Origin: a virus
DNA length: 33,573 bases
Reading direction: 5' to 3' (one strand)
Virus record (IMG/VR): IMGVR_UViG_3300044620_000786
Span: 1 to 33,573 of that record
Each line of letters begins with the position of its first letter. Within the stretch, counting starts at the first letter, position 1. The notes under the pieces were generated by a model that worked only from the letters and a program-made list of their open reading frames with translations, did not search any database and had not been told where the DNA came from. A program made the translations under genes and the position numbers. Shown here piece after piece: positions 1,837 to 23,687 of the stretch.

Positions 1837-3735
1837 TTACTGTACCGGGACATTCGGTACAAGGTCGCTGGGTCCAATCGGAATCGGCGGTGACAGCGGC
1901 TCACCGGTTGCGCCAGGCATTGCCATTGGCATCTCGGGAAGCGGCGGCATCATCGCCTGTTCAATCTCTGCAATCTGCTGGAGGTACCGGCGCAGCAGTT
2001 CCAACCGGTCTTCGCGCAAGTTGTTTGCCTTGCCCTTGGCGTAGTACTCAAGGCAAAGCTGCTTGGACATCTGGAGGTCGTCCAGCGGGTCGGGCGACGT
2101 GTAATCGCCGTCGTCCACAATCTTGTCGAACACCATCGTCAGGTAGTCTTCCTCAGCGTTCGCCAGCGACTCCACCTGATCGAGGTCGGGGAAGTCAAGC
2201 AGACGACGCGCCTGACGCGGCGACAGAAACCCAGCCTGCGCGTATTCCTGAATCGTCTGGAGGCGACCAGCAGGGTCTTGCGGCAGCGACGACACCGGGT
2301 AGCACTGCATGACGTAGTCGTCGTCGTCCAACTTGATGTCGCTCCACTCAACCACGGCGATGGACTTGCGACCGGGAACCTTGACCTCGTAGTCCTTGTC
2401 CTGTCCCGCGATAATCTTTGCCATCTCAATGGAGAGGCGCGCAACGTCCATGTACATGTTCTCGTAGCTCTTCGCGGGAGTGTGCAGACGGTCGCTCTGA
2501 ATGTCTGCAAACTCGCGAATGGCTCGACCCGAGTTCAACCCCTCGGGCTTCAAGCTGGACGCCGCCATCTGCGACACGCCAGCCTGCTCGTAGCCCTTGT
2601 TAATCAGGGTTTGGAGGTGGTTGAAAATCTCAGGCGACACGATGTTTGGCACCACGTACTGCGGCGGCGTGCCGGTGTACATGATGATGCTGCCAACGTC
2701 GTTGTTGAGGTGTTCCTTTACAACCTTGGAACCGTTCTCAACGAACACCTTGAACGACCCAGCCAGATGGAACGACCGCTGGATAATCCAGAGCAGCTTG
2801 TTGATTTCGAGCTGGATGTTCTGAAGCTGCTCTGCGAGCCCCTGCCCCCAGTACCCGTACAGGCGCGGCGACCACTGGCAGCGCGCAAACGGGAACCACT
2901 GGTGCGGCCACGGCTCAACCTCACCCAAAACGGCACCGTCGATGGTGATGACATGTCGCCCGTCGTCCGCATCAGGGCCGCTGGCAAGGTGCCACGACTC
3001 GCGAACGGTGATCATGTCAGCGATGATGCTGCGCCCGTTTTCCTCGGTACGCGCCGGCTTCACGTTTGCAATCTTGGCGTAGTCGTCAGGGAACATGTCG
3101 AACAACACCTGGCGGTCGACCTGTTTGACGCGGTGCATCTGACGCGGTGAGCCGTAGAGCGACTCAACGTCGTCCACGAAAATCTCCGACGACATCACGC
3201 GCTCATGGCAAACGCGGTCGCCCTTGGCGAACACATGGATGAAACCGTCACCCCAGACGGACGCATCGCGGAACACCGTGGTTCCCAGCTCATGCGTGCT
3301 GTTCTCGTAGAACACGCCGTCGAGGAAGGCGTTCAGCTTCTTGGCTTCGCGCTGCTTCTTGTAGTCGCCGCCCGAGGTCAGGAACAGTGGCTTCGGCCGG
3401 TTGCGGGTAATCTTCGCCACGACCGTATCGACCACGCTCTGAACAAGGTTGTAACTGATGCGGTCACGCAGCGCAGGCTGCTGCGCCGCAAGCTTGCTGA
3501 ACGACACACCCGCCAGCGTCGTGGGCGACAGGTTGCCGTACAGACGGGCCGACACTATCCATTGAGTTGCGCGGAACGACTGCGCGTCCCGAATCAGGTT
3601 GAGCGTGCCGCTGATGACGTTGGCGCAGTCCTCGCCATCGAGCATCCACCAGCGACGTTCCTTGTTATCCGGCAGCTTGTCTGGAACACCGGAACGCTCG
3701 CCGCCAACCGTGAAATCGCGAAACTCAATGGGCAT
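1837..3735 (-). CDS. Portal protein
   Basis: 632 residues, in the normal range for phage portals (dodecameric ring at the capsid vertex through which DNA is packaged). Visible portal-like features are the N-terminal segment with 'RISYNLVQSVVDTVVAKITRNRPKP', i.e. the helix followed by R-P-K-P common to podovirus/siphovirus portals, a central beta-rich region around 'WPHQWFPFARCQW', and a C-terminal helical stem. Ribosome binding site GGAGG sits 4-5 nt before the ATG. It lies immediately after terL and two small ORFs, overlapping the preceding ORF by 11 bp, and precedes the scaffold and capsid genes. Confidence 0.88.
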   Translation of the reverse strand: MPIEFRDFTVGGERSGVPDKLPDNKERRWWMLDGEDCANVISGTLNLIRDAQSFRATQWIVSARLYGNLSPTTLAGVSFSKLAAQQPALRDRISYNLVQSVVDTVVAKITRNRPKPLFLTSGGDYKKQREAKKLNAFLDGVFYENSTHELGTTVFRDASVWGDGFIHVFAKGDRVCHERVMSSEIFVDDVESLYGSPRQMHRVKQVDRQVLFDMFPDDYAKIANVKPARTEENGRSIIADMITVRESWHLASGPDADDGRHVITIDGAVLGEVEPWPHQWFPFARCQWSPRLYGYWGQGLAEQLQNIQLEINKLLWIIQRSFHLAGSFKVFVENGSKVVKEHLNNDVGSIIMYTGTPPQYVVPNIVSPEIFNHLQTLINKGYEQAGVSQMAASSLKPEGLNSGRAIREFADIQSDRLHTPAKSYENMYMDVARLSIEMAKIIAGQDKDYEVKVPGRKSIAVVEWSDIKLDDDDYVMQCYPVSSLPQDPAGRLQTIQEYAQAGFLSPRQARRLLDFPDLDQVESLANAEEDYLTMVFDKIVDDGDYTSPDPLDDLQMSKQLCLEYYAKGKANNLREDRLELLRRYLQQIAEIEQAMMPPLPEMPMAMPGATGEPLSPPIPIGPSDLVPNVPVQ

Positions 3736-4021
3736 TGTGCCTCCACCGTCTACGGCGCTTTACGCCATACATGCGACCGAGGGTGGCAAACGCCTCCTTC
3801 TCGGTTTCGCCGGTCATGTCGGGGAACCACTGCTTGCACAACTGCCCAACGATATAGACACGCTCTTCGGGCGATAGCGGCGCAAGCTCGCTGAACCACG
3901 GAACCTTGCCAGATTGCAACGCCTTGACGCAAGCGTCTTGATTGGCAAACCCTGCCCAGAGGGCCGCACGCCAAAGCGGTTCACGCGGACTTGCCTTGGT
4001 TTCCTCAGTCTCAACCGACAT
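3725..4021 (-). CDS. Small hypothetical protein between terL and portal
   Basis: 98 residues beginning MSVETEETK. This ATG is preferred to one 30 bp upstream because AGGGGG lies 5 nt before it and because it reduces overlap with the previous ORF to 11 bp. The protein is mostly helical with three Trp residues and a very basic C-terminus (KRRRRWRHN). It overlaps the portal start by 11 bp, so translation is probably coupled. No family recognised; the position would suit a head-assembly or packaging accessory. Confidence 0.65.
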   Translation of the reverse strand: MSVETEETKASPREPLWRAALWAGFANQDACVKALQSGKVPWFSELAPLSPEERVYIVGQLCKQWFPDMTGETEKEAFATLGRMYGVKRRRRWRHNAH

Positions 4022-4298
4022 CGACGCCCCCTGTTGACGAGCAAAGGTCATGCGAGCAACCCAGCAGACAACCCGCCTCGGTATGCTCCGTCACCCAACT
4101 GTGACCGCACGAACAAACGGACCCGGTGGCATCCTCAAACACTCCCTGCTGGGCCATAGGCTCCACAAAGGTTGATTGGGATTGCGGGATGCCACCGAGC
4201 TCCAACTGTAAACCATCCACAGAAAGACGCCTAATACCATGCTCTCGCATGAAGGCGACCCACTCAGCAACTTCGTTTCGCTTCAATTGTCGCCCCAC
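4011..4298 (-). CDS. Small Cys/His-rich hypothetical protein
   Basis: Up to 95 residues. The N-terminal half resembles a short helix-strand domain ('VAFMREHGIRRLSVDGLQLEL'). The C-terminal half is Cys/His-rich: C-x-C-G-H near residue 62, then C, C-x-H and C, which could bind zinc. The frame opens with GTG at 4298, overlapping the end of terL; that start has no clear Shine-Dalgarno. A TTG four codons later overlaps the terL stop (TTGA) and follows GGGG, and may be the true coupled start. No function recognised. Confidence 0.6.
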   Translation of the reverse strand: MGRQLKRNEVAEWVAFMREHGIRRLSVDGLQLELGGIPQSQSTFVEPMAQQGVFEDATGSVCSCGHSWVTEHTEAGCLLGCSHDLCSSTGGVDVG

Positions 4299-5782
4299 AT
4301 GGCAAGTTGCTGTTCTTGGTAGTGTTTCTCTTCCAACTGCTTTTCAAGTTCCGTTTCATACTCCAGCATCACCCACTCGCCCTGGGTGTTGCCAGCGCGC
4401 ATCCCGTTCGGTGCCAGCGTGTCGGCCAGGTACTGGTAGCAATGCCGCCAAGAGTACAGCAGAGCGTCCGTCAGATGGTTGTCGCACCCGGGATGCTCTT
4501 CCCTTCTTGGCAAAGCACGCTCATCCCATACCAGCGACTGCAACTCGTCCATCAAACCAACGCCCAGCTTGCGCTGAATCTTGATGAATCCGCTGATGAA
4601 GTCGCCGTTCATAATCTCAATGAAGTCGGCTTTGCCCTGCTTCTGGGCGGGCGTCAAGGGAATGTCGTGACGACGGCGTATCTCCTCGACCGCCTGCTTG
4701 TTGGCGTTGTCGATGATGATGCTGTCGAATTGGAACCGACTCATCAGCTTGTGCGTTCGGTCGGCCACCTCGGTGATGTCGCACCCGGCCTTCTTGTCCG
4801 CGCCGAGGACATACAGCGTCCGGTCGTTGTCGCGGTAGCCGCAGACGACCCAAGCGGTCGGGTCATTGAACCCGAGGTCGATGCCGAGGACGTAGTGCCA
4901 GCGGTCGCGCCCGTGACGCGCAGCCGGCAGTTCGTCAAAGACGTTGCGGCTGCTGTCAAAGCGGTAGACCAGCTTTCTGTCGTCGGTGACCCACTTGCCC
5001 AGGTAGTGCTGCTGAAACAGCGGCGTCTGCTCAATCGCTGGGTTTGCCAGCTTCAAGTCTTCAATCTCAGCCTTCCACTTCTCTGCCATCGAGGGGTTGT
5101 CAAACGCCGTCCAGCGGTGGCACGACCAACCCATCTTGCTCCAGCGACCGGGGACGGACGGGTCTTGGCCGTTGGTCAGGTCATAGAACAAGCCGCGCTT
5201 CATGTTGCCGGGGGTACCAATCATGGCGATGGTGCCGCCGTAGTCTGCGGTGGCCGGCTTCAGAATGCCGTAGACCATCTCGTTCAGGTCGACGTTGTAG
5301 GACGCAGCCTCATCAATGACGACAATCTTGAACTTCTGACCGAGGGCCTTGTCCTTTTCTTGCTCGTCGGCGTCCATGCCTAGGAGGTAGATGATGCTCC
5401 CGTTCGGCAGGGTGCAGGACAGTTCGGTCTCATTGAACCGGCACTGCATGTTCTGCTCGCGGTCGATGGTCTTCAGCACGTCCTTCCACAGGATGCGCTT
5501 GGCTGATGCTCTTGTCAGGGCGACGTACAGACACGACACACCGGGGTTCTGGTAGGCGTCCCGCAGCAACATCAAGCCGGCGGCATAGGACTTACCGGCA
5601 CGGCGGGTGCAAAGCGCCACCTTGAGGCGGGAGGTGTCGTCAATGAACGCCGTCTGGCACAGCGCCAGCGGGTCGCTGAACTTGGGTTCCTTCTTCTCGG
5701 CGGCGACCAGTGCAAAAAACTCCGACCGCTCGGAGGGCGTCATCGCCGACAGCAGGCGCTCAAGTTCGGCAGGGGACACCAT
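4283..5782 (-). CDS. terL: Terminase large subunit (ATPase-nuclease packaging motor)
   Basis: 499 residues, full length for TerL. The N-terminal ATPase has a Walker A-like CTRRAGKS (58-65), Walker B IVVIDEA with D157/E158 (153-159), and an IGTPGN coupling motif (188-193). The C-terminal RNase H-like nuclease shows the three expected acidic positions: D302 in GIDLGFND, D358 in IIIDNA and D439 in HLTDALL. The enzyme cuts concatemeric DNA and pumps it through the portal. The ATG overlaps the upstream stop as TGATG, and no Shine-Dalgarno is visible, so it probably depends on translational coupling. The small subunit is not adjacent but about 2.6 kb away at 8439-8864. Confidence 0.95.
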   Translation of the reverse strand: MVSPAELERLLSAMTPSERSEFFALVAAEKKEPKFSDPLALCQTAFIDDTSRLKVALCTRRAGKSYAAGLMLLRDAYQNPGVSCLYVALTRASAKRILWKDVLKTIDREQNMQCRFNETELSCTLPNGSIIYLLGMDADEQEKDKALGQKFKIVVIDEAASYNVDLNEMVYGILKPATADYGGTIAMIGTPGNMKRGLFYDLTNGQDPSVPGRWSKMGWSCHRWTAFDNPSMAEKWKAEIEDLKLANPAIEQTPLFQQHYLGKWVTDDRKLVYRFDSSRNVFDELPAARHGRDRWHYVLGIDLGFNDPTAWVVCGYRDNDRTLYVLGADKKAGCDITEVADRTHKLMSRFQFDSIIIDNANKQAVEEIRRRHDIPLTPAQKQGKADFIEIMNGDFISGFIKIQRKLGVGLMDELQSLVWDERALPRREEHPGCDNHLTDALLYSWRHCYQYLADTLAPNGMRAGNTQGEWVMLEYETELEKQLEEKHYQEQQLAMWGDN

Positions 5783-8265: not shown

Positions 8266-8438
8266 AACATCAACAAAACATCCAGCCAAGAATGCGGGTC
8301 GGATGCCATGAAAATAGGGGCTTGACACGTTTTTGCGGCCGTGCGCAGTAGTTACCTACGCGCGTGCGCGTCATACAGGTGCTTAACAAGTACATGCGAG
8401 GGTGGCAGAGCGGCGGCTGAGCCGACGCGGTGGCCCGG

Positions 8439-8864
8439 TTACTCGCCACCGACGCGGCTTCTCGCACGCTCCAACAGCATAACGACCCGCTCAGTGCGCT
8501 GCTCAGCCGTCAGGCCGTCAGTCTTGACGGTGACGCGCTCCTCCAACATGCCCAAGTGCTTCGCAAGAAGCTCCAAGGCGCGCACTTTCGTACTTTGCGC
8601 AACGTCTTCCTGCCCTGCAACGGCCATGAGCTGGTCAATAACCCACTGCGCGTCAACACCAGCACGCTTAGCGACGACCTTGGTTTTTTCATCGATCTTT
8701 TGACGCACGACGGGATTCGCAAGAAGCTGCGCTCCAGCAGTACTAGCGCGCTTCTCGCTGTAACCCGCCGCCAACGCGGCCTTGGTGCCATTGCGGCTGA
8801 CAAGATACTCGTTAACAAACTGGTGCTGCCGAAGTGTCAGGCCGCTCTTGTCCTTCTGTGCCAT
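8439..8864 (-). CDS. terS: Terminase small subunit
   Basis: 141 residues from the ATG at 8864 (MAQKDKSG), chosen because GGAGG lies 10 nt upstream and the frame further upstream has no domain character. The N-terminus is a classic Terminase_2 helix-turn-helix: LTLRQHQFVNEYL, then NGTKAALAAGYS and ASTAGAQLLANPVVRQKI. TerS binds the pac or cos region and delivers it to TerL. The C-terminal part is helical and would form the oligomerisation core. Unusually it is separated from terL by an oppositely transcribed cassette. Its upstream region carries repeated AACGNGYACTTT elements. Confidence 0.9.
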   Translation of the reverse strand: MAQKDKSGLTLRQHQFVNEYLVSRNGTKAALAAGYSEKRASTAGAQLLANPVVRQKIDEKTKVVAKRAGVDAQWVIDQLMAVAGQEDVAQSTKVRALELLAKHLGMLEERVTVKTDGLTAEQRTERVVMLLERARSRVGGE

Positions 8865-8947
8865 TTTGACATTACCTCCGAGCGCCGTGACAAATTGGCA
8901 GACGTGCTGAAAATGAATCGCGTTCAGTAACCGGCGCAGTTTTTCAA

Positions 8948-9054
8948 AACGAGTACTTTTTTGAGTACTGCCGCAGGAAACGCGTACTTTCCCGCGATGC
9001 GCACTTTTCGGGAGCGGTGACGCGAAGCGCGGTTTCCCGCGCAACGCGCACTTT
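8948..9054. repeat. Four copies of an AACGNGYACTTT-like element upstream of terS
   Basis: Copies read AACGAGTACTTT (8948-8959), AACGCGTACTTT (8979-8990), ATGCGCACTTT (8997-9007) and AACGCGCACTTT (9043-9054), all in the same orientation. Two are also followed by CCGCG or TTCGGG on the same side. They occupy the only long gap (8865-9109) between terS and the early operon, so they may be regulator-binding sites for late transcription or terminase (pac/cos) recognition elements. Confidence 0.55.
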
Positions 9055-9109
9055 TTCACTCATCCGGTCCGAGGGTACGGGTTGCCTGCAACGGGGCCTT
9101 ATCCGGCAG

Positions 9110-9373
9110 TCAGGCTTCGACCAGGGTCATTACCTCGACGTTGGCGTAGGGGATAATGAACCGCCCACCGTCGTTGTGGACATCGAACATCACGCCGGCC
9201 GGGTGCGTCGAGATGCTGGTGCAGATGAGCATGTTCTGCGATGCGATGTTGACAGCCGTTGTGTCGGTGGTGAGCGTCGTGATGATGCGCGCACCGTTGA
9301 AGTGAACGCCGCCGGTACGGACGCGGACGTGCTTGAGCTGCTCGCGGTTGCTGGTCTTCGCTTCATTCGCCAT
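9110..9373 (-). CDS. Small hypothetical protein, beta-rich
   Basis: 87 residues from the ATG at 9373 (MANEAKTSN), with GAAGGTG upstream; the longer open frame above it is the reading-frame shadow of the previous gene. Composition alternates strands (VRVRTGGVHFNGARIITTL, AGVMFDVHNDGGRFIIPYANVEVM), suggesting a compact beta protein. Last gene of the leftward early operon. It overlaps the previous ORF by 11 bp. No function recognised. Confidence 0.65.
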   Translation of the reverse strand: MANEAKTSNREQLKHVRVRTGGVHFNGARIITTLTTDTTAVNIASQNMLICTSISTHPAGVMFDVHNDGGRFIIPYANVEVMTLVEA

Positions 9374-9545
9374 GGGTTGCTTCACCTTCTGCGGCCTTGA
9401 CGGCACGCGCTTCGTCCTCCAGCACTTCGATGCGCCGGATGTTGTTGTTGCGTTCCTGCTCAAGCTGCTTGATTCGGTACGTCTGCTCCCCAATGAGGGC
9501 GCAGAGCCGGGAGTACTCGCCGTTCACTTCGTCAATCGACCTCAT
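9363..9545 (-). CDS. Small coiled-coil protein
   Basis: 60 residues, MRSIDEVNGEYSRLC at the N-terminus followed by a heptad-like stretch (YRIKQLEQERNNNIRRIEVLEDEA) compatible with a coiled coil. GGAG is 9 nt before the ATG. It overlaps genes on both sides by 11-14 bp. Function unknown. Confidence 0.6.
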   Translation of the reverse strand: MRSIDEVNGEYSRLCALIGEQTYRIKQLEQERNNNIRRIEVLEDEARAVKAAEGEATHGE

Positions 9546-9810
9546 GCGGTTTCACTCCATCGATGATTTGCAGCAGGGCGCTCGCCAAACTCATCGCCAT
9601 GAAGCGCGCCTTGCCTTCGGTAGCGCATCCGTACCCGGTAGCCCAATGCTCCCGGTCGGAAGCATACAGCGACAACTCCCACGACCAGGTGCCGTCAGAC
9701 TCAAGCCGAACGTCCATTGTGGACTTCTTAAGGTCTGCGCCTAGGCTGAACTCGCACCACGAGCCGGCTTGCCCGTAAACTTCGACCGCTTCCCACGTCA
9801 TGCCGGTCAT
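9532..9810 (-). CDS. Hypothetical protein, 92 residues
   Basis: ATG at 9810 overlaps the upstream acetyltransferase stop (ATGA) and has AGGGTGG before it, which favours it over an in-frame ATG 39 bp upstream. The protein looks like a single alpha+beta domain with many aromatics: 'WEAVEVYG', 'WSWELSLYASDREHWATGYG', then a helix 'ARFMAMSLASALLQIIDG'. No family recognised. Confidence 0.65.
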   Translation of the reverse strand: MTGMTWEAVEVYGQAGSWCEFSLGADLKKSTMDVRLESDGTWSWELSLYASDREHWATGYGCATEGKARFMAMSLASALLQIIDGVKPHEVD

Positions 9811-10232
9811 GCGCCCACCCTGTTTAGCAAATACGGGTTGTAAACACACTTCTCAAGGCGCGGGTACAGGTCGCGCAACGGGTGCGTCCAATGCGTGTAG
9901 CTGAAGGGTTCCTCGAAGTGAGCGAGCAGCGCCTTAGCCAACCCGTGACGCCGGAATGCCGGCTTCACATACACATAGTGGACGACGCCCGGTTCGCTGA
10001 CGCTCCAGCCTAGGACCACGTCCGGTTCGTCAGGGAGGACCGCCAACTTCACGGTCGGCTGGCCCGAGAACACGCGGTCGATAACGAGGTGATGCTCGGC
10101 AAAGAACAGGTCGCGAGGGACATGCTTCGCTGCCAGCGACGAGGCCTCGTAGGAACGCAACCAGGTGGCGTAGATGAGGTTCTTGGCGCCGTCGTTGCCG
10201 TCGATGATGATGTACTGCTGCTCGTCGCTCAT
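9807..10232 (-). CDS. GNAT-family N-acetyltransferase
   Basis: 141 residues. The acetyl-CoA binding core is visible at about 88-105: VHYVYVKPAFRRHGLAKALL, matching the GNAT motif A pattern (V-x-P-x-x-R-x-x-G-x-A). The N-terminal half carries the substrate side (IYATWLRSY, HLVIDRVF). Such enzymes transfer acetyl from acetyl-CoA to an amine; the substrate here is unknown. Overlaps neighbours by 4 bp at both ends in the early operon. Could modify a host or phage protein, or act in DNA-base hypermodification, but nothing shows which. Confidence 0.75.
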   Translation of the reverse strand: MSDEQQYIIIDGNDGAKNLIYATWLRSYEASSLAAKHVPRDLFFAEHHLVIDRVFSGQPTVKLAVLPDEPDVVLGWSVSEPGVVHYVYVKPAFRRHGLAKALLAHFEEPFSYTHWTHPLRDLYPRLEKCVYNPYLLNRVGA

Positions 10233-10735
10233 CCGAAAAAGTCCTCGTCGCTACTGACCACGGGCCTCGGTCGCTCAGGCTCAGGGGGAAGTTCTACGAC
10301 CGTCACAATCCTGTCAAGGAAATCCGGTTCAACATCCGGCACTTCGACCGGTTTGGGCTTCAATGGGAAGTGTGCCGGGGCCTTGGCAACGACCTTGTAC
10401 CCGCCGGAATACTTGCCCTTGGTGTGCTTTTTATTCGGTACCTTGATGGCCTTGCCGCCTCGACACTCCCGGCAGATGTAGCCAAAACGACGGAAAGCGT
10501 TGGGGTTCTTGTTGCACAACGGGCACGGCTTCTTGGGGTACTTGGTCCCGCGCTTGGGGCCGGGTTTACCCTTCACCTTGATGGCCCGTGCGCCGATTTC
10601 TTGGCTCACCAGTTCGACCAGCTCCTTCGACCAGCGCCGGATGAGCCGGTGAATTTTGTCGGTCAGTTCCTTGGAGACCTCGGTCTGCTCCAAGGGTTCG
10701 ACGCACAGCTTCGACGGGTCGACAACGTCACTCAT
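10229..10735 (-). CDS. Zinc-ribbon protein with basic and acidic low-complexity arms
   Basis: 168 residues from the ATG at 10735 (MSDVVDPS), with AGGA 5 nt upstream. A helical N-terminus is followed by a Lys/Pro/Gly-rich linker (KGKPGPKRGTKYPKK), a C4 zinc ribbon (CPLC...CREC, about residues 72-91), another Lys-rich stretch and an acidic/Pro C-terminus ending EDFFG. Probably binds nucleic acid. The acidic Phe-containing tip resembles SSB-like interaction tails, which is speculation. Confidence 0.65.
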   Translation of the reverse strand: MSDVVDPSKLCVEPLEQTEVSKELTDKIHRLIRRWSKELVELVSQEIGARAIKVKGKPGPKRGTKYPKKPCPLCNKNPNAFRRFGYICRECRGGKAIKVPNKKHTKGKYSGGYKVVAKAPAHFPLKPKPVEVPDVEPDFLDRIVTVVELPPEPERPRPVVSSDEDFFG

Positions 10736-10943
10736 CGTCATCCTGCGCATCAAGTTCAAGAATCAGTTCGTCGGCCCAAACGACGGCGTGTTCAACGGCA
10801 GCGCGACGTGCGCGCCCCCACTCTCCAGGTCCATGCCCGTCCATGAAAGGTGTAAAGTTTGACGCAAACCCCGCAAGAATCTGCGCAGCAATGCGCTCCC
10901 GCCTTGCCTTTTTGTCGTCTACCGCCCACCGAATGCTGGTCAT
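10728..10943 (-). CDS. Small hypothetical protein
   Basis: 71 residues, mostly helical: 'DKKARRERIAAQILAGFASNFTP' then 'RARRAAVEHAVVWADELILEL' and an acidic tail DAQDDDE. Start overlaps the upstream stop by 4 bp (ATGA) and its end overlaps the next gene by 8 bp. No family recognised. Confidence 0.65.
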   Translation of the reverse strand: MTSIRWAVDDKKARRERIAAQILAGFASNFTPFMDGHGPGEWGRARRAAVEHAVVWADELILELDAQDDDE

Positions 10944-11161
10944 TTCCCGTCCCTTTCAAGCAGCGCCTGCCTCAAGTAGGCGCAAAGGTCTAGAGCCTCT
11001 TCATAGGCATCCCGCAGCGCATCCCGTCCGTTGTTCGGCTGAAGCGGCACGCCGTACCGCTCGCGTCCCAACTGGTCCCGTGCCTGCATATCAGCGACGA
11101 CCAATGGCCACACGGCCGGTTTGTCGTTGGCGACCGGTGCCGGCTGCTCCTTGTGACTCAT
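10940..11161 (-). CDS. MazG-like / phage dNTP-hydrolase-associated helical protein (tentative)
   Basis: 73 residues from the ATG at 11161, which overlaps the preceding stop (ATGA). The core 'RDQLGRERYGVPLQPNNGRDALRDAYEEALDLCAYLRQAL' matches a domain widespread in phages, with the E-x-x-x-D helix seen in all-alpha NTP pyrophosphohydrolases. If related to MazG it would hydrolyse nucleotides, but the usual second metal-binding helix pair is not complete, so only the family resemblance is claimed. Confidence 0.6.
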   Translation of the reverse strand: MSHKEQPAPVANDKPAVWPLVVADMQARDQLGRERYGVPLQPNNGRDALRDAYEEALDLCAYLRQALLERDGK

Positions 11162-11682
11162 GGCTTGTCCTCGGGCAGCGGCAGGGCGCGGATAATGTCC
11201 ATGTGGCATCCAGCCTCTTCCCGTGCGATGCCCAAATGGTCTGAAACTTCGGCGCCAATGATCTGCATAGTATTTATTCTTTCATTGTATCTATTACGCA
11301 GCCGCAACATCTCCTTCGCCGCCGCCTCGCGCATCGCTTCCGCGCCGCGTTGAAACGCCTCGCGATTCCTCTTCATCTGCTGCTTCACGGTTCGCATATC
11401 GACGGTGTGCTTTGCGATGCGGACCTCTTGCTTTAGCCGCTCGACCTCGGCCCGCGCTTCGTCCACTACACGCTCGGCGTCACGCTGATGAATCTTCTCG
11501 TTCTCATCGGCCACCCAAGGATAGGTCGCGACGGCAGGACGCAGCGGCTCCGCGAGCGCGGCGTCGATGCGGGCGAGGAAGGCGTCATCTTTTGGCGATA
11601 GTAGCTTGGTATGGCAGTCGCACTCGCGCATCCAGGTCAGCGCCTCCGCGAGCAGCGCCCGTAGCTTCTCGTTCTCGGTCAT
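11158..11682 (-). CDS. Coiled-coil hypothetical protein
   Basis: 174 residues. A short N-terminal domain with two Cys and one His (MRECDCH) is followed by a long charged helix (about 75-150, ERVVDEARAEVERLKQEVRI onward) of coiled-coil character. Overlaps the zinc-binding gene upstream by 4 bp. Resembles many phage early-region coiled-coil proteins of unknown role. Confidence 0.6.
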   Translation of the reverse strand: MTENEKLRALLAEALTWMRECDCHTKLLSPKDDAFLARIDAALAEPLRPAVATYPWVADENEKIHQRDAERVVDEARAEVERLKQEVRIAKHTVDMRTVKQQMKRNREAFQRGAEAMREAAAKEMLRLRNRYNERINTMQIIGAEVSDHLGIAREEAGCHMDIIRALPLPEDKP

Positions 11683-11975
11683 TCGTCGTACCTCTCAAAG
11701 CAGCTGGGGTCGATGTCGTCAAAACGCCGCCGCGCCATGCCGGTGCCGTTGCACGTCAGACACCGGATGCCGGCGTAGTCGCCGCCACCGTGACCACCGC
11801 AGTTGCCGCAGGAGCCGTCGTCCTCGACCTCAACCTCTTCCAGCCTGTTGGTGTCGTCGTCCCACATCGCCCAGTAACACTCTTGGCACAGCGTCCACTC
11901 GCAGTCGGCAGCGTCGAGGAATCGACCAACCGCAAACTGACCGCACCCGTCCTTCTCACACTTCCCGTATCGCAT
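11679..11975 (-). CDS. DnaJ-like zinc-binding protein
   Basis: 98 residues with two Cys clusters. The N-terminal one is C-x5-C then C-x2-C (KCEKDGC, LCQEC). The central one, CGNCGGHGGG and CLTCNGTGM (about 56-80), reproduces two CxxCxGxG repeats of the DnaJ zinc domain. AAGGAG is 6 nt before the ATG. It is the first gene after the promoter at 12041. Similar short DnaJ-zinc ORFs occur in phage early regions; function not known. Confidence 0.65.
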   Translation of the reverse strand: MRYGKCEKDGCGQFAVGRFLDAADCEWTLCQECYWAMWDDDTNRLEEVEVEDDGSCGNCGGHGGGDYAGIRCLTCNGTGMARRRFDDIDPSCFERYDE

Positions 11976-12012
11976 CGCTTGCTCCTTCCCGCCTCGCTGG
12001 CGGGTAAGCGCA

Positions 12013-12041
12013 CCTTAAGACAGGCCACAGGAACCTGTCAA
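12013..12041 (-). promoter_or_regulatory. Leftward promoter with overlapping inverted repeat
   Basis: Minus-strand TTGACA (12041-12036), 17-bp spacer, TTAAGG (12018-12013). The spacer and -35 contain GACAGG-N9-CCTGTC (12019-12039) and a nested ACAGG-AA-CCTGT (12027-12038), so three ACAGG half-sites at 7-bp steps. That is what a repressor operator would look like. A 6-bp hairpin (CCCGCC/GGCGGG) follows in the leader just before the ribosome binding site of the gene ending at 11975. Confidence 0.6.
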
Positions 12042-12269
12042 CTATTTTGTGAAGGGTGGCGTTAGAGGCCCGTCTTCCATCAGTTCAGCCCACTCGGCAT
12101 CGACCTTGCGCCAACGCTGCCAGCCGCTCATGGGTTGCAGGACGTACCACCCGTCCTCGCACGGTCGCACCTCGTAGACGTTCCGGTGCAAGTCCTTGGT
12201 GCGCTGCCTAGCGCGGGTCGCCACCACCGTCACGCCAGCGCCTTTGTCGTCGTCGGACCACCACGTCAC
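12042..12269 (-). CDS. Small hypothetical protein
   Basis: 75 residues from a GTG at 12269, supported by a strong TGGAGG 7 nt upstream. Sequence is MTWWSDDDKG then a beta-like stretch (VYEVRPCEDGWYVLQPM) and a Trp-rich C-terminus. Its 5' end overlaps the preceding ORF by 62 bp in another frame. No family recognised. Confidence 0.6.
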   Translation of the reverse strand: MTWWSDDDKGAGVTVVATRARQRTKDLHRNVYEVRPCEDGWYVLQPMSGWQRWRKVDAEWAELMEDGPLTPPFTK

Positions 12270-12465
12270 GGTTTGCCTCCAGCATGATGTACTTCAGGCT
12301 GCTAGGGTGATTACGGCACACTCCAGACTTCGACCATGCCGACACCCTGCCCCGGCACCCTTCGACGCTCATAACGCAAGCACGGGCCGCTCCTGCGTGT
12401 CTTTGACAGTACCCGCTGACGTTCATCTCGCAGAGGGGCGCTCCGCACTCAAGGCAACCGCTCAA
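12208..12465 (-). CDS. Cys/His-rich small protein
   Basis: 85 residues from a TTG at 12465, supported by TAGAGG 6 nt upstream and overlap with the RusA stop. Cys and His are spaced like a small zinc domain (CLEC, C, YCQRH, C, C, VCRNH), and the C-terminus is strongly basic (VVVRRRQRRWR). The 62-bp overlap with the next gene is long for this genome. Probably a zinc-binding nucleic-acid protein; unproven. Confidence 0.55.
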   Translation of the reverse strand: MSGCLECGAPLCEMNVSGYCQRHAGAARACVMSVEGCRGRVSAWSKSGVCRNHPSSLKYIMLEANRDVVVRRRQRRWRDGGGDPR

Positions 12466-18636: not shown

Positions 18637-18947
18637 ACAAGCGCACGGTGCTGGTCGTTGCGGCGCTGTTCACGCTGGTCGTCCTCGGCGTCAAAGAGTG
18701 CGGCGAGTGGCTGGATGAAACCACGATGGCTGCGGTCGAGCCTGACCCGTCAACACTAAAACCCTGCGTCGGTCGCAAGCCTGTGAGGGAACATGGAAGA
18801 AAATACATCTGGTACTGCGGTAGTGGAAGGGATGAGGCGGCTGATCGCGCTGGAGCGCGCCTGGCGGCAGTGGATGCAGTCGCAACGAAAGGGCGCACCA
18901 CGGTCGGAGCTTCTTGCGGCAGAGCAGGCGCTGCGCGAGGTCGCTAG
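18633..18947 (+). CDS. Single-pass membrane protein, C-terminal half overlapped
   Basis: 104 residues. Residues 4-20 are a signal-anchor helix (RTVLVVAALFTLVVLGV) followed by C23 and a short periplasmic-type region with two further Cys. From about residue 55 the frame is Ala/Gly/Arg-rich and overlaps another ORF (18793-18960) with more natural composition. The ATG overlaps the upstream stop (ATGA) and its TAG touches the next GTG, so the frame is probably translated to the end. Confidence 0.55.
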   Translation: MNKRTVLVVAALFTLVVLGVKECGEWLDETTMAAVEPDPSTLKPCVGRKPVREHGRKYIWYCGSGRDEAADRAGARLAAVDAVATKGRTTVGASCGRAGAARGR

Positions 18948-18960
18948 TGTCGCTGACTGA
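18793..18960 (+). CDS. Overlapping small helical protein
   Basis: 55 residues (MEENTSGTAVVEGMRRLIALER...EVASVAD) from an ATG with GAGGGA 4 nt upstream. Charged, helical composition typical of phage early micro-proteins. It lies almost wholly inside the C-terminal part of the membrane-protein frame, in another frame, and overlaps the next gene by 14 bp. Both frames may be used. Confidence 0.5.
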   Translation: MEENTSGTAVVEGMRRLIALERAWRQWMQSQRKGAPRSELLAAEQALREVASVAD

Positions 18961-19147
18961 GTCGCAGATTGTTTACGCTCGGCTGTGCGAGCTGGCCTCA
19001 CAGCTACACAAGCCGGATGCGATGAGCGAGTTGCGCCGCCTCGGCGCAATTCACCGCTGGGAGTACGAGCGGCTTCCATTATGGATCAAGGAAGCAGCAG
19101 GACTGAAAGACTGCGAGGCAAGCAAGCCCGCAGAACAGGGCCAATAG
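18947..19147 (+). CDS. Small hypothetical protein upstream of ssb
   Basis: 66 residues from a GTG at 18947 (MSLTESQIVYARLC), with GAGG 8 nt upstream. Helical, with a Trp-containing segment (AIHRWEYERLPLWIKEAAG). Ends 19 bp before the ssb start. Function unknown. Confidence 0.6.
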   Translation: MSLTESQIVYARLCELASQLHKPDAMSELRRLGAIHRWEYERLPLWIKEAAGLKDCEASKPAEQGQ

Positions 19148-19166
19148 CGGCCCACGGAGCAAGGCA

Positions 19167-19538
19167 ATGGCTGGAACTTTCACGGGTACGGTTGTCGGTT
19201 ACGTTGCGAAAGACCCGGAGGCGCGTGGTAACGGGCCCATGGGATTCTCCATCCCGGTGTCGAAGGGCAAGGACAAGCCGACGACCTGGGTGCGCGTCAC
19301 CGTCTGGGGCAAGACCGCAGAGTACGTTGCGCAGTACATTCGCAAGGGTTCGCTGGTCAGCGTCAGCGGCTCCATCGAACTGCGCGAGTTTGAGAGCGCC
19401 AAGGGCAAGGGAACGTCGCTGGAGATGAACGCCAGCAGCGTGACCAGCTTCCGCACCGACAGCGCGCCTGCGCAGGGCGGTGGCTTCGGAGCGAAGCCCG
19501 GTTTCGGTGGCCCGTCCGACGACGACCTTGCGTTCTAA
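19167..19538 (+). CDS. ssb: Single-stranded DNA-binding protein
   Basis: 123 residues. An OB-fold SSB: GTVVGYVAKDPEAR at the N-terminus, 'TTWVRVTVWGKTAEYVAQYIRKGSLVSVSGSIELREF' in the core, and a Gly-rich linker leading to the acidic tip DDDLAF, which in bacterial SSBs recruits partner proteins. GGAG precedes the ATG. It coats ssDNA made by the nuclease and works with the annealase. A terminator follows immediately. Confidence 0.93.
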   Translation: MAGTFTGTVVGYVAKDPEARGNGPMGFSIPVSKGKDKPTTWVRVTVWGKTAEYVAQYIRKGSLVSVSGSIELREFESAKGKGTSLEMNASSVTSFRTDSAPAQGGGFGAKPGFGGPSDDDLAF

Positions 19539-19551
19539 TTGACCGAAAATG

Positions 19552-19589
19552 GGGGCCGGTGCAGCATCTGGGCATCGGCCCCTCTTTTT
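19552..19589 (+). terminator. Rho-independent terminator after ssb
   Basis: GGGGCCG (19552-19558) pairs perfectly with CGGCCCC (19576-19582), with an inner TGC/GCA adding to the stem, followed by TCTTTTT. It ends the recombination operon and separates it from the DNA-modification genes. Confidence 0.8.
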
Positions 19590-19593
19590 GTGG

Positions 19594-19622
19594 TTGACGT
19601 GACGTTGCCAGTGGCGCTACAG
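19594..19622 (+). promoter_or_regulatory. Promoter of the DNA-modification operon
   Basis: TTGACG (19594-19599), 17-bp spacer, CTACAG (19617-19622), directly after the ssb terminator and 22 bp before the first modification gene. It resembles the promoter at 21311 (shared TTGACGTGxCGTT and GTGxxGCTAC). Confidence 0.55.
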
Positions 19623-19643
19623 GGGTGTTAATAGGGGAAGCGA

Positions 19644-20339
19644 ATGAAGGGGTACGTTGGACAAACGCGGTCATCGAAACTGACAGAACGCCTTCGCCAG
19701 CTCGAAATTGGTGAGGCGACGCAACCTGATGAGTGGCCACCTAGGCGAACACCCTACTTCCTCGACAACGGCGCATTCAAGCTGTGGCAGAACGGACTAC
19801 CGTTCAATGAGGAGCGATTTGCGCGCATCTGTCAGCGCGTGGATGAGGAGGGTCCAGCGCCAGACTGGATCGTGGTTCCTGACCGAGTGGCCGACCCATC
19901 CTCGCTGGAGTACTCGTTGTCTTGGCTTCCGCGACTGCGTGGAATCGCACCGCTGGCGCTGGTGGTACAAGACGGTATGACGGTCGAGGCTGTGCGACAG
20001 GCGATGGGACGCGGCTTCTCGGTCATCTTTATCGGCGGCACGCTGGAGTGGAAGTTTGCGACGGCTCCTCAGTGGGTGGCGCTAGCGAAAGAACTCGGTG
20101 CGCGTTGTCACATTGGACGCATCGGAACACGCGGTAGGGCAAGATGGGCCAGAGAGATTGGCGCCGACTCCGTCGATAGCTGCTGTCCTTTGTTTAGCGA
20201 GGGGAACCTGACGCGCTGGCTACAGGGCATGAAAGAGGAATATCAGTCAAACATGTTTGGACCACCGCAGCCGAAGCCAAACCAAATCAAACTCGTTCGG
20301 AAGAACAAGAGGACACCAAATGCAGAGCGTAACGATTAG
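19644..20339 (+). CDS. dpdA: DpdA-like 7-deazaguanine DNA transglycosylase
   Basis: 231 residues; AGGGGAAG precedes the ATG. The TIM-barrel features of the TGT/DpdA family can be followed: YFLDNGAF (38-45, with D41), DWIVVPDRVADP (74-85), LALVVQDG (104-111), SVIFIGGTLEWK (126-137), ARCHIGRIGT (153-162) and GADSVDSC (173-180). DpdA enzymes swap a guanine in DNA for a 7-deazaguanine, as tRNA-guanine transglycosylases do in RNA. QueD and QueE encoded directly downstream support this. It is short for the superfamily, as phage DpdAs tend to be. No database search was possible; an uncharacterised TGT relative is the alternative. Confidence 0.75.
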   Translation: MKGYVGQTRSSKLTERLRQLEIGEATQPDEWPPRRTPYFLDNGAFKLWQNGLPFNEERFARICQRVDEEGPAPDWIVVPDRVADPSSLEYSLSWLPRLRGIAPLALVVQDGMTVEAVRQAMGRGFSVIFIGGTLEWKFATAPQWVALAKELGARCHIGRIGTRGRARWAREIGADSVDSCCPLFSEGNLTRWLQGMKEEYQSNMFGPPQPKPNQIKLVRKNKRTPNAERND

Positions 20340-20679
20340 CAAGATGTTCGACTTTGACGCAGCTCACTATCTGCCAAACGTAGAGGATGGCCACAAGTGC
20401 AAGCGGCTTCATGGACACACCTACCGGGTTGAGGTGGGTTGTTCTGGAGTCATCGACAGGCGCGGCATGGTTTTGGACTATGCGGAGATGTCCGCTGCAT
20501 GGAAGCCGGTCGAACTGCGGCTTGACCACTACTGTCTTAATGACATTGAGGGCCTAGAGAACCCCACCACCGAGGTGCTGGCGCCGTGGATTATGGCGCA
20601 GTTGCTCCCGTCGCTACCGCAACTGTCGTTTGTTCGGGTCTACGAGAGTGCGACGACCTGGTGCGAGGTGCGCCGTTGA
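20320..20679 (+). CDS. queD: QueD, 6-carboxy-5,6,7,8-tetrahydropterin synthase
   Basis: 119 residues from the ATG at 20320 (AGAGGA upstream), overlapping the DpdA-like gene by 20 bp. Zinc ligands H16, H31 and H33 and catalytic C27 lie in FDAAHYLP and CKRLHGH; H70 (LDHYCLND) and E109 complete the active site. It converts 7,8-dihydroneopterin triphosphate to 6-carboxy-tetrahydropterin, the second step from GTP to 7-deazaguanines. The first enzyme, FolE, is not in the window and is presumably the host's. Confidence 0.92.
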   Translation: MQSVTISKMFDFDAAHYLPNVEDGHKCKRLHGHTYRVEVGCSGVIDRRGMVLDYAEMSAAWKPVELRLDHYCLNDIEGLENPTTEVLAPWIMAQLLPSLPQLSFVRVYESATTWCEVRR

Positions 20680-21302
20680 CATCGTACCGACTGGCCGAGG
20701 TCTTCGACACGGTACAGGGCGAGGGCGCGCAAGTGGGGCAGCGCATGGTCTTCGTGCGCCTCTCTGGGTGCAACCTCTGGAACGGTTTAGAGGAAGGGCG
20801 CAAGAGCGGGAAGGGTGATTGCGCAGCGTGGTGCGACACCGACTTCCGACCACGCCTGACCATGACGGCAGACGAGCTGCTTTCGGCGATGGACGCGCTG
20901 TGGCCCTCGGGCGACAGGTGGTGCTGCCTTACGGGCGGTGAACCGCTCTTGCAAGTGCGTCCCGAGTTACTGCTTCACCTGCGCGATGCTGGCTGGCGCA
21001 TCGCAGTCGAAACAAACGGCACGGTCGATGTGGACTTGGCGCTTGCAGACCACCTGACTGTGTCACCAAAGAAGGGCGGCGCGCTTGCGCTCAAGGACTG
21101 CCACGCACTAAAAGTGGTGCTGCCAGGTGGCTGGAGCGACGCAGACCTCGCTGAAATGACGGCGCGCTATGCTGGAGCGGCGCTCTTTGTTCAGCCGCAG
21201 TTCGGGAACCCATCTGCCGTGCAAGAGTGCTTGCGCGTTATCAAGCGGGACTCTCGCTGGCGCTTGTCCGTTCAGTCACACAAGGCACTTGGAATACCGT
21301 AA
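20676..21302 (+). CDS. queE: QueE, 7-carboxy-7-deazaguanine synthase (radical SAM)
   Basis: 208 residues from a TTG that overlaps the queD stop (TTGA), preceded by GAGGTG; earlier starts lie inside queD. The N-terminus has VFDTVQGEG, and the 4Fe-4S cysteines are C32, C49 and C53 in the CNLWNG...CAAWCDTDF pattern of the proteobacterial QueE subgroup. GGEPLLQ (87-93) and VETNGT (111-116) bind SAM. It makes 7-carboxy-7-deazaguanine from the QueD product. C49-x3-C53 spacing is one residue longer than the usual CxxC. Confidence 0.9.
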   Translation: MTSYRLAEVFDTVQGEGAQVGQRMVFVRLSGCNLWNGLEEGRKSGKGDCAAWCDTDFRPRLTMTADELLSAMDALWPSGDRWCCLTGGEPLLQVRPELLLHLRDAGWRIAVETNGTVDVDLALADHLTVSPKKGGALALKDCHALKVVLPGGWSDADLAEMTARYAGAALFVQPQFGNPSAVQECLRVIKRDSRWRLSVQSHKALGIP

Positions 21303-21310
21303 AACAAAAC

Positions 21311-21339
21311 TTGACGTGGCGTTATGGGTGATGCTACTC
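21311..21339 (+). promoter_or_regulatory. Promoter before the RHH gene
   Basis: TTGACG (21311-21316), 17-bp spacer and CTACTC (21334-21339), starting 9 bp after queE. It would begin transcription about 13 nt before the RHH gene. Same promoter type as that at 19594. Confidence 0.5.
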
Positions 21340-21358
21340 GTGCCGCCACGGAGGATAG

Positions 21359-21541
21359 ATGCGACCAGCACACAAGCGAAGAATTGTTCTGTACGACTTG
21401 AGCGAGCCAGATCGCGAGCGGCTCAAGGAAGTGGCCGAGAAGGACAACCGTACGGTATCCCGATGGGCGTCTGACGCGGTGCGTTCTGAACTGAGGCGGC
21501 GTGGATACAAACCCAAGACCAGCGAGGTTTCAGATGACTAA
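21359..21541 (+). CDS. Ribbon-helix-helix (Arc/CopG-like) regulator
   Basis: 60 residues with GGAGG 4 nt before the ATG. The fold is legible: basic strand KRRIVLYDL, helix A SEPDRERLKEVAEKD, turn NRT, and helix B VSRWASDAVRSELRRRG. RHH dimers insert the paired strands into DNA. It probably autoregulates or controls the neighbouring modification genes; the target is unknown. Confidence 0.7.
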   Translation: MRPAHKRRIVLYDLSEPDRERLKEVAEKDNRTVSRWASDAVRSELRRRGYKPKTSEVSDD

Positions 21542-21755
21542 CAGGAAGAAGGCGTTTCAGGAGATTGATTGGAACTGCCGCAGCGCGGTGCTGCTGATGA
21601 TTACCGCGTCACACGCGGCTGGCGCCGCCAAGACGGTGCATCCGGTGCGTCAGGCGGCTCATGCGAAGCTGGTGATTGAAGCGATTGAGAACGCGATGCT
21701 GGTGTTGGCCGAGGCCCGTAACGAGGCAGAGAAGCTATGCGCGCTTGCGAAGTAG
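21534..21755 (+). CDS. Small hypothetical protein
   Basis: 73 residues from the ATG at 21534, with GAGG 6 nt upstream. Helical and Ala-rich (AVLLMITASHAAGAAK, then HAKLVIEAIENAMLVLAEARNEA). Overlaps the RHH gene end by 8 bp and the next gene start by 19 bp. Function unknown. Confidence 0.6.
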   Translation: MTNRKKAFQEIDWNCRSAVLLMITASHAAGAAKTVHPVRQAAHAKLVIEAIENAMLVLAEARNEAEKLCALAK

Positions 21756-22162
21756 CCAAGTGTAAGAAGCCTGCTACCTCTCGCGGAATGTGCATGTCGC
21801 ACTACGCCAAGTGGTACAGAAAAGAACATCCAGACTACGAGGCTGGCAGGAAATACCCGTGCCGTTTGTGCGGCAAGCTGACCTCGTCTACCGACCACTG
21901 CGCCGGTTGCAGGCACATTGCTGACCGCATGAAGCGCGACAAGTGGGAGCGCCAAGAGCTCCAACACTCGGTCTATTACCGGCGCATGCTTGGTAGGTGC
22001 ATCGTGCGCGTCTACGATGGGCCAACGGTGCGCTGGGAAGTGGAGCGCGGTAGGGTGCGTCAGGGCATCGGCAAGACAGTGGTTGACGCAATGCGTCACG
22101 CCGTCGACAGGGCAAATCATGTGGAGTCGGTCTTCAGGAGGGTGAAGAATGAGCCAGCATAA
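21737..22162 (+). CDS. Zinc-finger protein, possible HNH-adjacent or DNA-binding
   Basis: 141 residues with two Cys/His clusters. The first is C4, C9, C19 and H22 (RACEVAKCKK, GMCMSHYAKWYR), the second CRLC...CAGCRH (about 42-60). The 'C-x4-C-x9-C-x2-H-Y-x-K/R-W' layout recurs in phage zinc-finger and homing-endonuclease-linked proteins, though no HNH catalytic core follows. The C-terminal half is a strand-rich basic region. DNA binding is inferred. Confidence 0.6.
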   Translation: MRACEVAKCKKPATSRGMCMSHYAKWYRKEHPDYEAGRKYPCRLCGKLTSSTDHCAGCRHIADRMKRDKWERQELQHSVYYRRMLGRCIVRVYDGPTVRWEVERGRVRQGIGKTVVDAMRHAVDRANHVESVFRRVKNEPA

Positions 22163-22328
22163 AGGACTGCTCGATACTTGGCGCAGCGAAGCGTTCAACC
22201 AAGGCGTCCACTACGCCAAGTGCGAAGCGGCGCGGCTCGCCTACGAAATCCTGCGCGGCAGGCCGGATGCGCGCTTCGTAGAAGCGGCCATCATGCGCAT
22301 TGAGGTGCCGAAGGACGACGAAGAATGA
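22149..22328 (+). CDS. Small hypothetical protein before the methyltransferase
   Basis: 59 residues (MSQHKGLLDTWRSEAFNQGVH at the N-terminus), helical, with AGGAGGG about 7 nt upstream. It overlaps the preceding gene by 14 bp and its TGA overlaps the methyltransferase ATG as ATGA. Function unknown. Confidence 0.65.
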   Translation: MSQHKGLLDTWRSEAFNQGVHYAKCEAARLAYEILRGRPDARFVEAAIMRIEVPKDDEE

Positions 22329-23140
22329 AGACCATCGGCTCCCTGTTTGCTGGCATCGGCGGCTTCGACCTCGGCTTTGAGCGCGAGGGGTTCACGACCT
22401 CTTGGGCTGTGGAGATTGACCAGAAGGCGCAAGCCGTGCTTCGCCGTCATTTCCCCTCCGCTGCCCTGCATGACGATGTCTGTCAGGTCGGCTCCCACAA
22501 CCTCGGCCCCGTGGATGTCGTGACGTTTGGTTCCCCTTGCCAAGACCTGTCGGTCGCTGGCAAGCGTGCCGGTCTTGCCGGTGAAAGGTCAGGTCTGTTC
22601 CATGAGTCAGCTCGCATTATTCGCGAACTTCGAGAAGCCTACGGAAAGCCAGACTTCGCCATCTGGGAAAACGTTTCAGGAGCCTTCAGCAGCAACGCTG
22701 GCCGAGACTTTGCTGCTGTCATCCAAGCGATGGTCGACATCGGGGCGCGTGACGTTGCGTGGCGAGTGCTGGACAGCCGCTTCGCAGGAGTGGCTCAACG
22801 ACGCCGAAGAGTGTTTCTTGTCGCAGATTTTGGAGGAGAGCGCGCCGCAGAAGTACTGGCTCTCACCGAAGGCGTGCGCGGGAATCCTGCGAAGAGCCGA
22901 AAAACGCGGCAAGGAACTGCCTCGTCCGCTGGAGCGGGCTTTGACGAACGTGGCATCCCGCGAACCGTAGGCGCGCTGACTGACGGCGCACACAACGGGG
23001 GGGGGCTTAACGGGCAGGACGCATACACGGGTCGAATATTCCCCGCGTATCGCCAACCCGCTGACGGCGCGGATGGCAAAGGGAATCAACTCGACGCTAG
23101 ACGAGGGACAGACACCGGTAGTTATCGGAGGTCACTTTGA
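22325..23140 (+). CDS. dcm: C5-cytosine DNA methyltransferase, N-terminal and catalytic part (frame broken)
   Basis: 271 residues as read. Motif I is GSLFAGIGGFDLGFE (5-19), motif IV GSPCQDLSVAGKR with catalytic C72, motif VI ENVSGAF (115-121) and motif VIII QRRRRVFLV (158-166). The sensible target-recognition sequence continues to TGRIFP (about 235), after which the frame becomes unlike the family. The true continuation (NPLTARM, then motifs IX and X) is in the frame of 23073-23687. Removing one C from the CCCC at 23041-23044 would join the two as IFPRIANPLT. A nine-G run at 22997-23005 is an alternative slip site. Either a mutation, a sequencing error or a programmed +1 shift. Confidence 0.88.
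   Translation: MKTIGSLFAGIGGFDLGFEREGFTTSWAVEIDQKAQAVLRRHFPSAALHDDVCQVGSHNLGPVDVVTFGSPCQDLSVAGKRAGLAGERSGLFHESARIIRELREAYGKPDFAIWENVSGAFSSNAGRDFAAVIQAMVDIGARDVAWRVLDSRFAGVAQRRRRVFLVADFGGERAAEVLALTEGVRGNPAKSRKTRQGTASSAGAGFDERGIPRTVGALTDGAHNGGGLNGQDAYTGRIFPAYRQPADGADGKGNQLDARRGTDTGSYRRSL
22602..22970 (+). CDS. ORF nested within the methyltransferase gene, conserved phage family motif
   Basis: 122 residues from an ATG at 22602 (MSQLALFANFEK), with AGGT 7 nt upstream, read in a different frame from the surrounding methyltransferase. The C-terminal half 'QKYWLSPKACAGILRRAEKRGKEL' matches a motif I recognise from many phages as a small protein encoded over or beside cytosine methyltransferase genes. 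The same DNA encodes methyltransferase motif VIII and its downstream loop. Dual coding looks plausible; function unknown. Confidence 0.55.
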   Translation: MSQLALFANFEKPTESQTSPSGKTFQEPSAATLAETLLLSSKRWSTSGRVTLRGECWTAASQEWLNDAEECFLSQILEESAPQKYWLSPKACAGILRRAEKRGKELPRPLERALTNVASREP

Positions 23141-23687
23141 CGAAAGCAACAAGCAACCCATCGGCCTAGACGAAGAACAGAACGCGATGGTCAACTGCTT
23201 TGGCACGCTCAAGGCACGAATGGAGGGCGGCGGTTTTGAGGGCGCGGTGATGGTGCCGCAGCCCATCGCAATGGTCAACATGCAAGGCTCAAAAGGCAAC
23301 GCGGTAGCGCAAGAGGATGGGCCTTCATACACGCTCAACTCTATGCACGGCCATGATGTTCATGCGGTTCTTGTGCCGCAAGTCTCTGGCACACTCGGTG
23401 GCGGCTCAGACCAGCGTGGCTGGTCGAACGACCTCGATCGGAGCGGAGCCTTCGTGCCACAAGGCGCCGTGGTGCGTCGCCTGACGCCAACAGAGTGCTG
23501 CCGCCTTCAAGGCTTCCCTGACGATTGGAACACCTGGGGCATCAGTAAGGACGGCAAGCGCGTGGAGATGGCCGACTCGTCCCGCTACAAGCAGCTCGGG
23601 AACGCCGTCACGGTCAACGTGGCGCAGCGCATCGCGCGGCGCGTCATGGCGGCTATTTCTTCTTCCGCGCACGCTCAATCTTGTTGA
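23073..23687 (+). CDS. C5-cytosine DNA methyltransferase, C-terminal part (after frameshift)
   Basis: 204 residues from an internal ATG; the frame is open from 22971. It contains a long target-recognition region, then motif IX RLTPTECCRLQGFPDDW (about 138-154) and motif X QLGNAVTVNVAQRI (about 176-189). These complete the enzyme begun at 22325. Without them the N-terminal part could not form a normal SAM site, so the enzyme works only if the frame is restored. No good ribosome binding site precedes the ATG. It ends 35 bp inside the convergent minus-strand gene. Confidence 0.85.
   Translation: MAKGINSTLDEGQTPVVIGGHFDESNKQPIGLDEEQNAMVNCFGTLKARMEGGGFEGAVMVPQPIAMVNMQGSKGNAVAQEDGPSYTLNSMHGHDVHAVLVPQVSGTLGGGSDQRGWSNDLDRSGAFVPQGAVVRRLTPTECCRLQGFPDDWNTWGISKDGKRVEMADSSRYKQLGNAVTVNVAQRIARRVMAAISSSAHAQSC

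Follow-up and report, generated by a model that had tools for sequence, protein, structure and literature searches.

A compact DpdA-like gene coupled to queD and queE in a viral contig belongs to a family with modular, partial que companions

We analyzed a stretch of viral DNA of 33,573 nucleotides (IMG/VR record IMGVR_UViG_3300044620_000786, the whole of which we call the window). The record is a linear 33.6-kb contig with genes for TerS, TerL, a portal protein, a helicase loader, RecT, an exonuclease, Ssb, and a DNA methylase. Three genes on its plus strand form a cassette, and profile matches and translation bore out the genes and coordinates given by an earlier sequence-only reading. A ribosome-binding site, AGGGGAAG (19633-19640, plus strand, read directly from the sequence), precedes the compact dpdA-like gene (19644-20339, ATG start, 231 aa; phrog_15826, E 8.6e-31), which is followed by queD (20320-20679, 119 aa; PF01242, 1.6e-33) and queE (20676-21302, likely TTG start; phrog_2076, 1.2e-23), the latter predicted to encode a radical SAM 7-carboxy-7-deazaguanine (CDG) synthase. 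queD starts 20 bases within the dpdA-like gene, and its stop codon overlaps the TTG start of queE as TTGA; hence the starts are coupled, as had been noted before. The cassette had also been credited with a promoter of its own, but a sigma-70 consensus scan of positions 18900-22400 returned no site. Instead, a terminator-like hairpin with a T-run (19545-19589, plus strand; -26.8 kcal/mol, z -4.68, equalled by 0 of 200 shuffles) lies 3' of ssb (19167-19538) and divides the cassette from the recombination module, and the strength of this hairpin suggests that the cassette is transcribed separately. The window also contains a C5-cytosine DNA methylase gene that is split across overlapping plus-strand frames at 22325-23140 and 23073-23687 (PF00145, N-terminal part 4.3e-42 and C-terminal part 6.2e-13); the split, near 23073-23140, reflects either a frameshift or an error in sequencing.

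No Pfam family covers the 231-aa protein, and its own family, phrog_15826, is annotated as 'unknown function', with some members called 'DpdA-like' by phage annotators. PDB sequence searches with the protein, both single and by profile, retrieved no TGT, and structure alone reached this superfamily. A single-sequence AlphaFold model was poor (pLDDT 48) and was superseded by a model based on an alignment of 52 sequences, the window protein and 51 viral relatives (pLDDT 92.3, pTM 0.85). Searching the PDB with this model using Foldseek, we found that TGTs made up most of the best 50 matches (E about 1e-5, prob 1.00), with TM values (query) of about 0.45-0.56. Among viral models, it matched phage queuine tRNA-ribosyltransferases, including the canonical DpdA of phage Sonali. 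Ribulose-phosphate epimerase and other TIM barrels had Foldseek scores similar to those of TGT, so the fold alone is not unique and the motif evidence matters. The motifs of the window protein are LD41NGAF, VPD80, VQ109DG, FIG131G132, H156xG, and DSVD178S, and residues D41, D80, Q109, G131, G132, K137, and D178 are invariant in 52 of 52 sequences. Matched to E. coli Tgt by order and context, D41 (LDNGAF) pairs with DSGGF, D80 (VPD) with FDEC, Q109 (VQDG) with IIQG, G131-G132 (FIGG) with VGG, and D178 (DSVDS) with FDCV. We take D41 and D178 to be the counterparts of the two catalytic aspartates of TGT, and D80, Q109, and G131-G132 to be base contacts. With hhalign, the C-terminal half aligned to E. 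coli Tgt at low probability, and the DNGAF/DSGAF region aligned to Sonali DpdA at a probability of 30%. The family profile matched TGT- or DpdA-annotated genes in Sonali, Me-ZS1, and a Stenotrophomonas phage, weakly (E 1e-3 to 6e-3), and also, weakly, a CAjan reading frame beside folE (E 8e-3). From the model and the motifs we conclude that the window protein is a compact enzyme of the TGT superfamily, related to yet distinct from canonical DpdA. The guess that it represents a divergent branch thus fits a TGT-like barrel with intact motifs in a compact family.

A TGT fold and TGT motifs would also suit an enzyme that modifies tRNA rather than DNA, a phage-encoded booster of the Q pathway, and QueD and QueE are common to the queuosine pathway. 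However, E. coli TGT has ~145 residues more, and the zinc site CxCxxC...H of tRNA TGT is absent from the sequence of the window protein, which argues that it is not a tRNA-type TGT. The family profile points, weakly, to phage DpdA genes, and the cassette lies among genes for DNA recombination and for a DNA methylase. We consider a tRNA substrate very improbable.

The two companions of the compact gene also appear to be what they had been named. QueD is 53% identical to E. coli QueD and keeps the active-site residues (CxxxHGH, H16, C27, H31, H33, D69, H70, E109). The predicted CDG synthase has the radical SAM fold and the three cluster cysteines (phrog_2076; alignment with E. coli and phage QueE). 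Its cysteines are spaced CX16CX3C, compared with CX3CX2C in E. coli QueE and CX14CX2C in L118 and L064; the window's spacing recurs in the QueE proteins of L124 (7899-8699) and L125 (7503-8780). We considered this spacing as a sign of an altered QueE product and dropped the idea, since L124 combines it with a full pathway including QueC; CX16CX3C is more readily explained as the mark of a lineage of phage QueE than by a different product.

The cassette supplies two of the four genes needed for the base, and the genes that would complete a pathway to preQ0 are missing from the record, in agreement with the sequence-only reading, which had seen neither QueC nor FolE in the window. A PF06508 search of the whole 33.6-kb record found no QueC, HMM searches of the record found no FolE, canonical or full-size DpdA, or ParB-like gene, and none of these genes turned up among the ORFs scanned with PHROGs. 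The PHROGs scan recognized no major capsid, tape measure, or major tail gene either. The linear record is therefore a fragment, and the absence of queC holds for this fragment only. Searches with the terminase and RecT gave no pointer to the phage host.

We next asked which que genes accompany the relatives of the compact gene. More than 500 viral stretches matched phrog_15826 in one scan, and the annotated relatives belong to actinophages and alphaproteobacterial phages, several of them named 'DpdA-like'. Dereplication at 85% left 112 sequences drawn from bacterial genomes, phage records, and IMG/VR; we assigned a motif class to 111 of the 112 and looked for que genes or folE within 10 kb. 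At least one was present in 34 of the 111 dereplicated relatives, absences being soft because flanks and contigs are limited. The set was partial in 30 of these 34, consisting of queC alone (12 cases), queD alone (10), queE alone (1), folE alone (1), queC and queD (3), queC and queE (1), queD and queE (1, the window), or queD, queE, and folE (1, L053); queC, queD, and queE occurred together in 4 of the 34. queC often directly adjoins the compact dpdA-like gene. The tree requires at least 12 changes of queC, 15 of queD, and 8 of queE, and que genes have been gained many separate times around this family.

These relatives bear on the possibility of a complete preQ0 pathway in the phage, with queC (and folE) located outside the fragment. 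The fragmentary record, with no recognizable capsid, tape measure, or major tail genes, leaves room for this, but the missing block is probably structural and the que genes of relatives adjoin dpdA. Moreover, among the 111 relatives, none that lacks a canonical DpdA has a full FolE-D-E-C set within 10 kb of the compact gene. A queC gene elsewhere in the genome therefore seems improbable to us.

Three phages encode the compact protein together with canonical DpdA, a ParB-like gene, and full QueC, QueD, QueE, and FolE (L009, 5875-6492 with 8272-12288; L124, 3254-8699; L164, 3042-7762). This points to a pair of transglycosylases per phage, which may recognize different target motifs, and because both enzymes are present the role of the compact protein could differ from that of canonical DpdA. 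The compact gene of L124, an 83.7-kb contig, lies in two overlapping frames (3254-4359), possibly owing to a frameshift. PAPS-reductase-like genes adjoin or neighbor the compact gene in ReqiPine5 and R6L (L011 6706-7623, L007 7343-8386). Their products are, like QueC, relatives of the N-type ATP-pyrophosphatases, and searches with the ReqiPine5 and R6L proteins matched each protein itself only.

The sequence-only reading had put CDG in phage DNA at its head. A CDG-inserting enzyme would need only QueD and QueE in addition to host FolE, and would leave dCDG, or dDG after decarboxylation, in the DNA; the 33.6-kb record, with no queC, is consistent with this. dCDG has reportedly been found in phage DNA, and DpdA3 and DpdA4 members are said to have been described. 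The distribution of queC in the compact family also counts in its favor. The residue after the catalytic D178 defines two motif classes, DSxDS (which includes the window) and DSxDG. DSxDS corresponds approximately to one clade of 38 rows (support 97/85), although a single DSxDG row is nested in it and L053 stands apart, and the window falls in an 11-row clade (support 100/96). queC is present within 10 kb in 1 of 38 DSxDS members versus 19 of 73 DSxDG members (Fisher p 0.0016), whereas queD is present in 6 of 38 and 13 of 73, respectively (p 1.0). L053 has the arrangement dpdA-queD-queE-folE and no queC within 13 kb. Mycobacterium phage Bipper likewise has DpdA, QueD, QueE, and FolE without QueC, and Hutinet et al. 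flagged it as possibly CDG-modified (PMC6884629). The scarcity of queC is a hint that the window's branch does without a phage queC.

Several observations speak against CDG as the inserted base. The depletion of queC becomes marginal once corrected for the tree, with the DSxDS clade making up 0.43 of the branch length and receiving 1 of 9 queC gains (p about 0.05), and host taxon may confound it. The absence of queC had at first looked branch-defining (0 of 13 records), until enlargement of the branch brought in L141, which lies inside it and has a queC gene overlapping dpdA, the only QueC among 26 further DSxDS whole records. Because of L141 and the weaker depletion after tree correction we did not adopt CDG as the best reading. 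In the majority of branch members, queD is the only que gene or there is none at all, so that they would need host QueE and probably host QueC too. The conserved motif residues, including those of the pocket, are common to queC-linked and queC-less members (52 sequences), which argues for a single base, downstream of QueC. We had considered invariant Lys137, near the base pocket, as a reader of the CDG carboxylate and dropped it, since it is equally invariant in queC-linked relatives and does not discriminate CDG use. Taken together, insertion of CDG by the window enzyme is possible but unlikely. It is doubtful, too, that the DSxDS branch as a whole is CDG-specific, such that QueD and QueE, its own or the host's, are enough for dCDG in DNA and QueC is dispensable; if it were, queC depletion would be its genomic signature. 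CDG was one among the alternatives of the earlier proposal itself, and the rarity of queC in the branch leaves it some probability.

That the host completes the pathway is the most economical reading. We examined 22 bacterial genomes in which the compact gene has no que neighbor within 10 kb, and 15 of the 22 encode a full-length QueC (E <= 1e-65). The other 7 are all Actinobacteria, and one QueC-positive actinobacterial case, a Nocardia, may be contamination (small contig, fragmented assembly). The compact TGT-like genes L107, L109, L111, L113, L114, and L116 come from actinobacterial genomes without full-length QueC. As summarized in PMC8306585, citing PMC6884629, phage 7-11, which has dpdA only, carries dADG, and Orion, whose host makes no preQ0, has none. 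The prevalence of QueC in these bacteria, dADG in the DNA of dpdA-only phages with preQ0-making hosts, and the variety of partial que sets, often with queC adjoining as in L141, all count against the CDG headline. FolE, QueD, and QueE of phage 9g can stand in for the corresponding E. coli enzymes (PMC6884629). Within the pathway, the earliest dedicated step is that of QueD (PMC13329287), so added QueD and QueE could increase supply. Our literature search found no modified nucleoside measurement for any member of the compact family.

Overall, we favor, as probable, a compact DNA guanine transglycosylase whose phage QueD and QueE boost a host-completed preQ0 pathway, with preQ0 or ADG as the inserted base. 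With Asp41 and Asp178, the 231-aa protein would remove a guanine from DNA and put a free 7-deazaguanine base in its place. The phage enzymes would take on the committed steps that open the synthesis, QueD making CPH4 and QueE then CDG, giving more precursor during infection, and host FolE upstream and host QueC downstream (the latter assumed) would complete the route to ADG or preQ0. The base would be present in the DNA as dPreQ0 or dADG, and the modified guanines may shield the phage DNA from restriction. Alternatively, the cassette could act on a CDG-dependent defence, for example on the CDG/preQ0 pool of Qat or type IV CBASS, as QueC-family defence proteins have been proposed to use CDG in protein deazaguanylation (PMC13329287). 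This is extremely unlikely, because PADLOC returned neither a match nor a CBASS link for the TGT-like protein and extra CDG would, if anything, favor such defences.

The cassette is real, and its novelty lies in a family of compact DpdA-like proteins that are accompanied, in modular fashion, by incomplete que sets. The fold, the motifs of the active site, and the recurrence of operon linkage connect phrog_15826, hitherto of 'unknown function', to 7-deazaguanine DNA modification. With ~205-230 aa, its members may be among the smallest guanine transglycosylases. The family also suggests a general strategy, in which a phage encodes one or two steps of a pathway of its host beside the enzyme that uses the product.

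We finally compared the window with known systems. DpdA2 of Vibrio phage nt-1 is TGT-like, as is the window protein, and is too distant from 9g-type DpdA for PSI-BLAST (PMC6884629). At E <= 10, the compact family profile matched nothing in the nt-1 genome, and a 464-aa nt-1 protein, at most a putative DpdA2, gave only a weak fold match to the window model. Bipper, the precedent in the literature for the CDG question (PMC6884629), resembles the window in that QueD and QueE follow DpdA, in the order DpdA-gp4-QueD-QueE-FolE. Its DpdA has 357 aa and is unmatched by the compact family profile, and the cassette also includes FolE and an additional gene, gp4. Bipper cannot borrow QueC from its host, whose genus has no preQ0 genes (PMC6884629). 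gp4 (L167 2047-2472; 141 aa, no Pfam match) lies between dpdA and queD and is a candidate for a step replacing QueC. The canonical DpdA phages CAjan, Laurie (Rosebush group), and Stenotrophomonas phage ply2008005c share with the window a TGT-superfamily enzyme with linked queD and queE, and the family profile weakly matches canonical DpdA around the D-x-G-A-F motif. However, their DpdA proteins have ~300-350 aa and are accompanied by QueC and FolE, whereas the window protein has 231 aa and its fragment contains neither. Similar in size are the proteins of Phegasus, Majeke, Sonali (gp81), Aoka, ReqiPine5 (gp03), and R6L (gp10), which belong to the same family (28-34%; phrog_15826), have 204-215 aa, and carry the same invariant motif residues. 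The window protein belongs to a different branch (DSxDS) from the annotated actinophage, ReqiPine5, and R6L members, and its gene is in an operon with queD and queE, whereas these compact relatives have no annotated que genes nearby, with the exception of Sonali, which combines the compact gene with a separate canonical DpdA, a ParB-like gene, QueC, QueD, QueE, and FolE.
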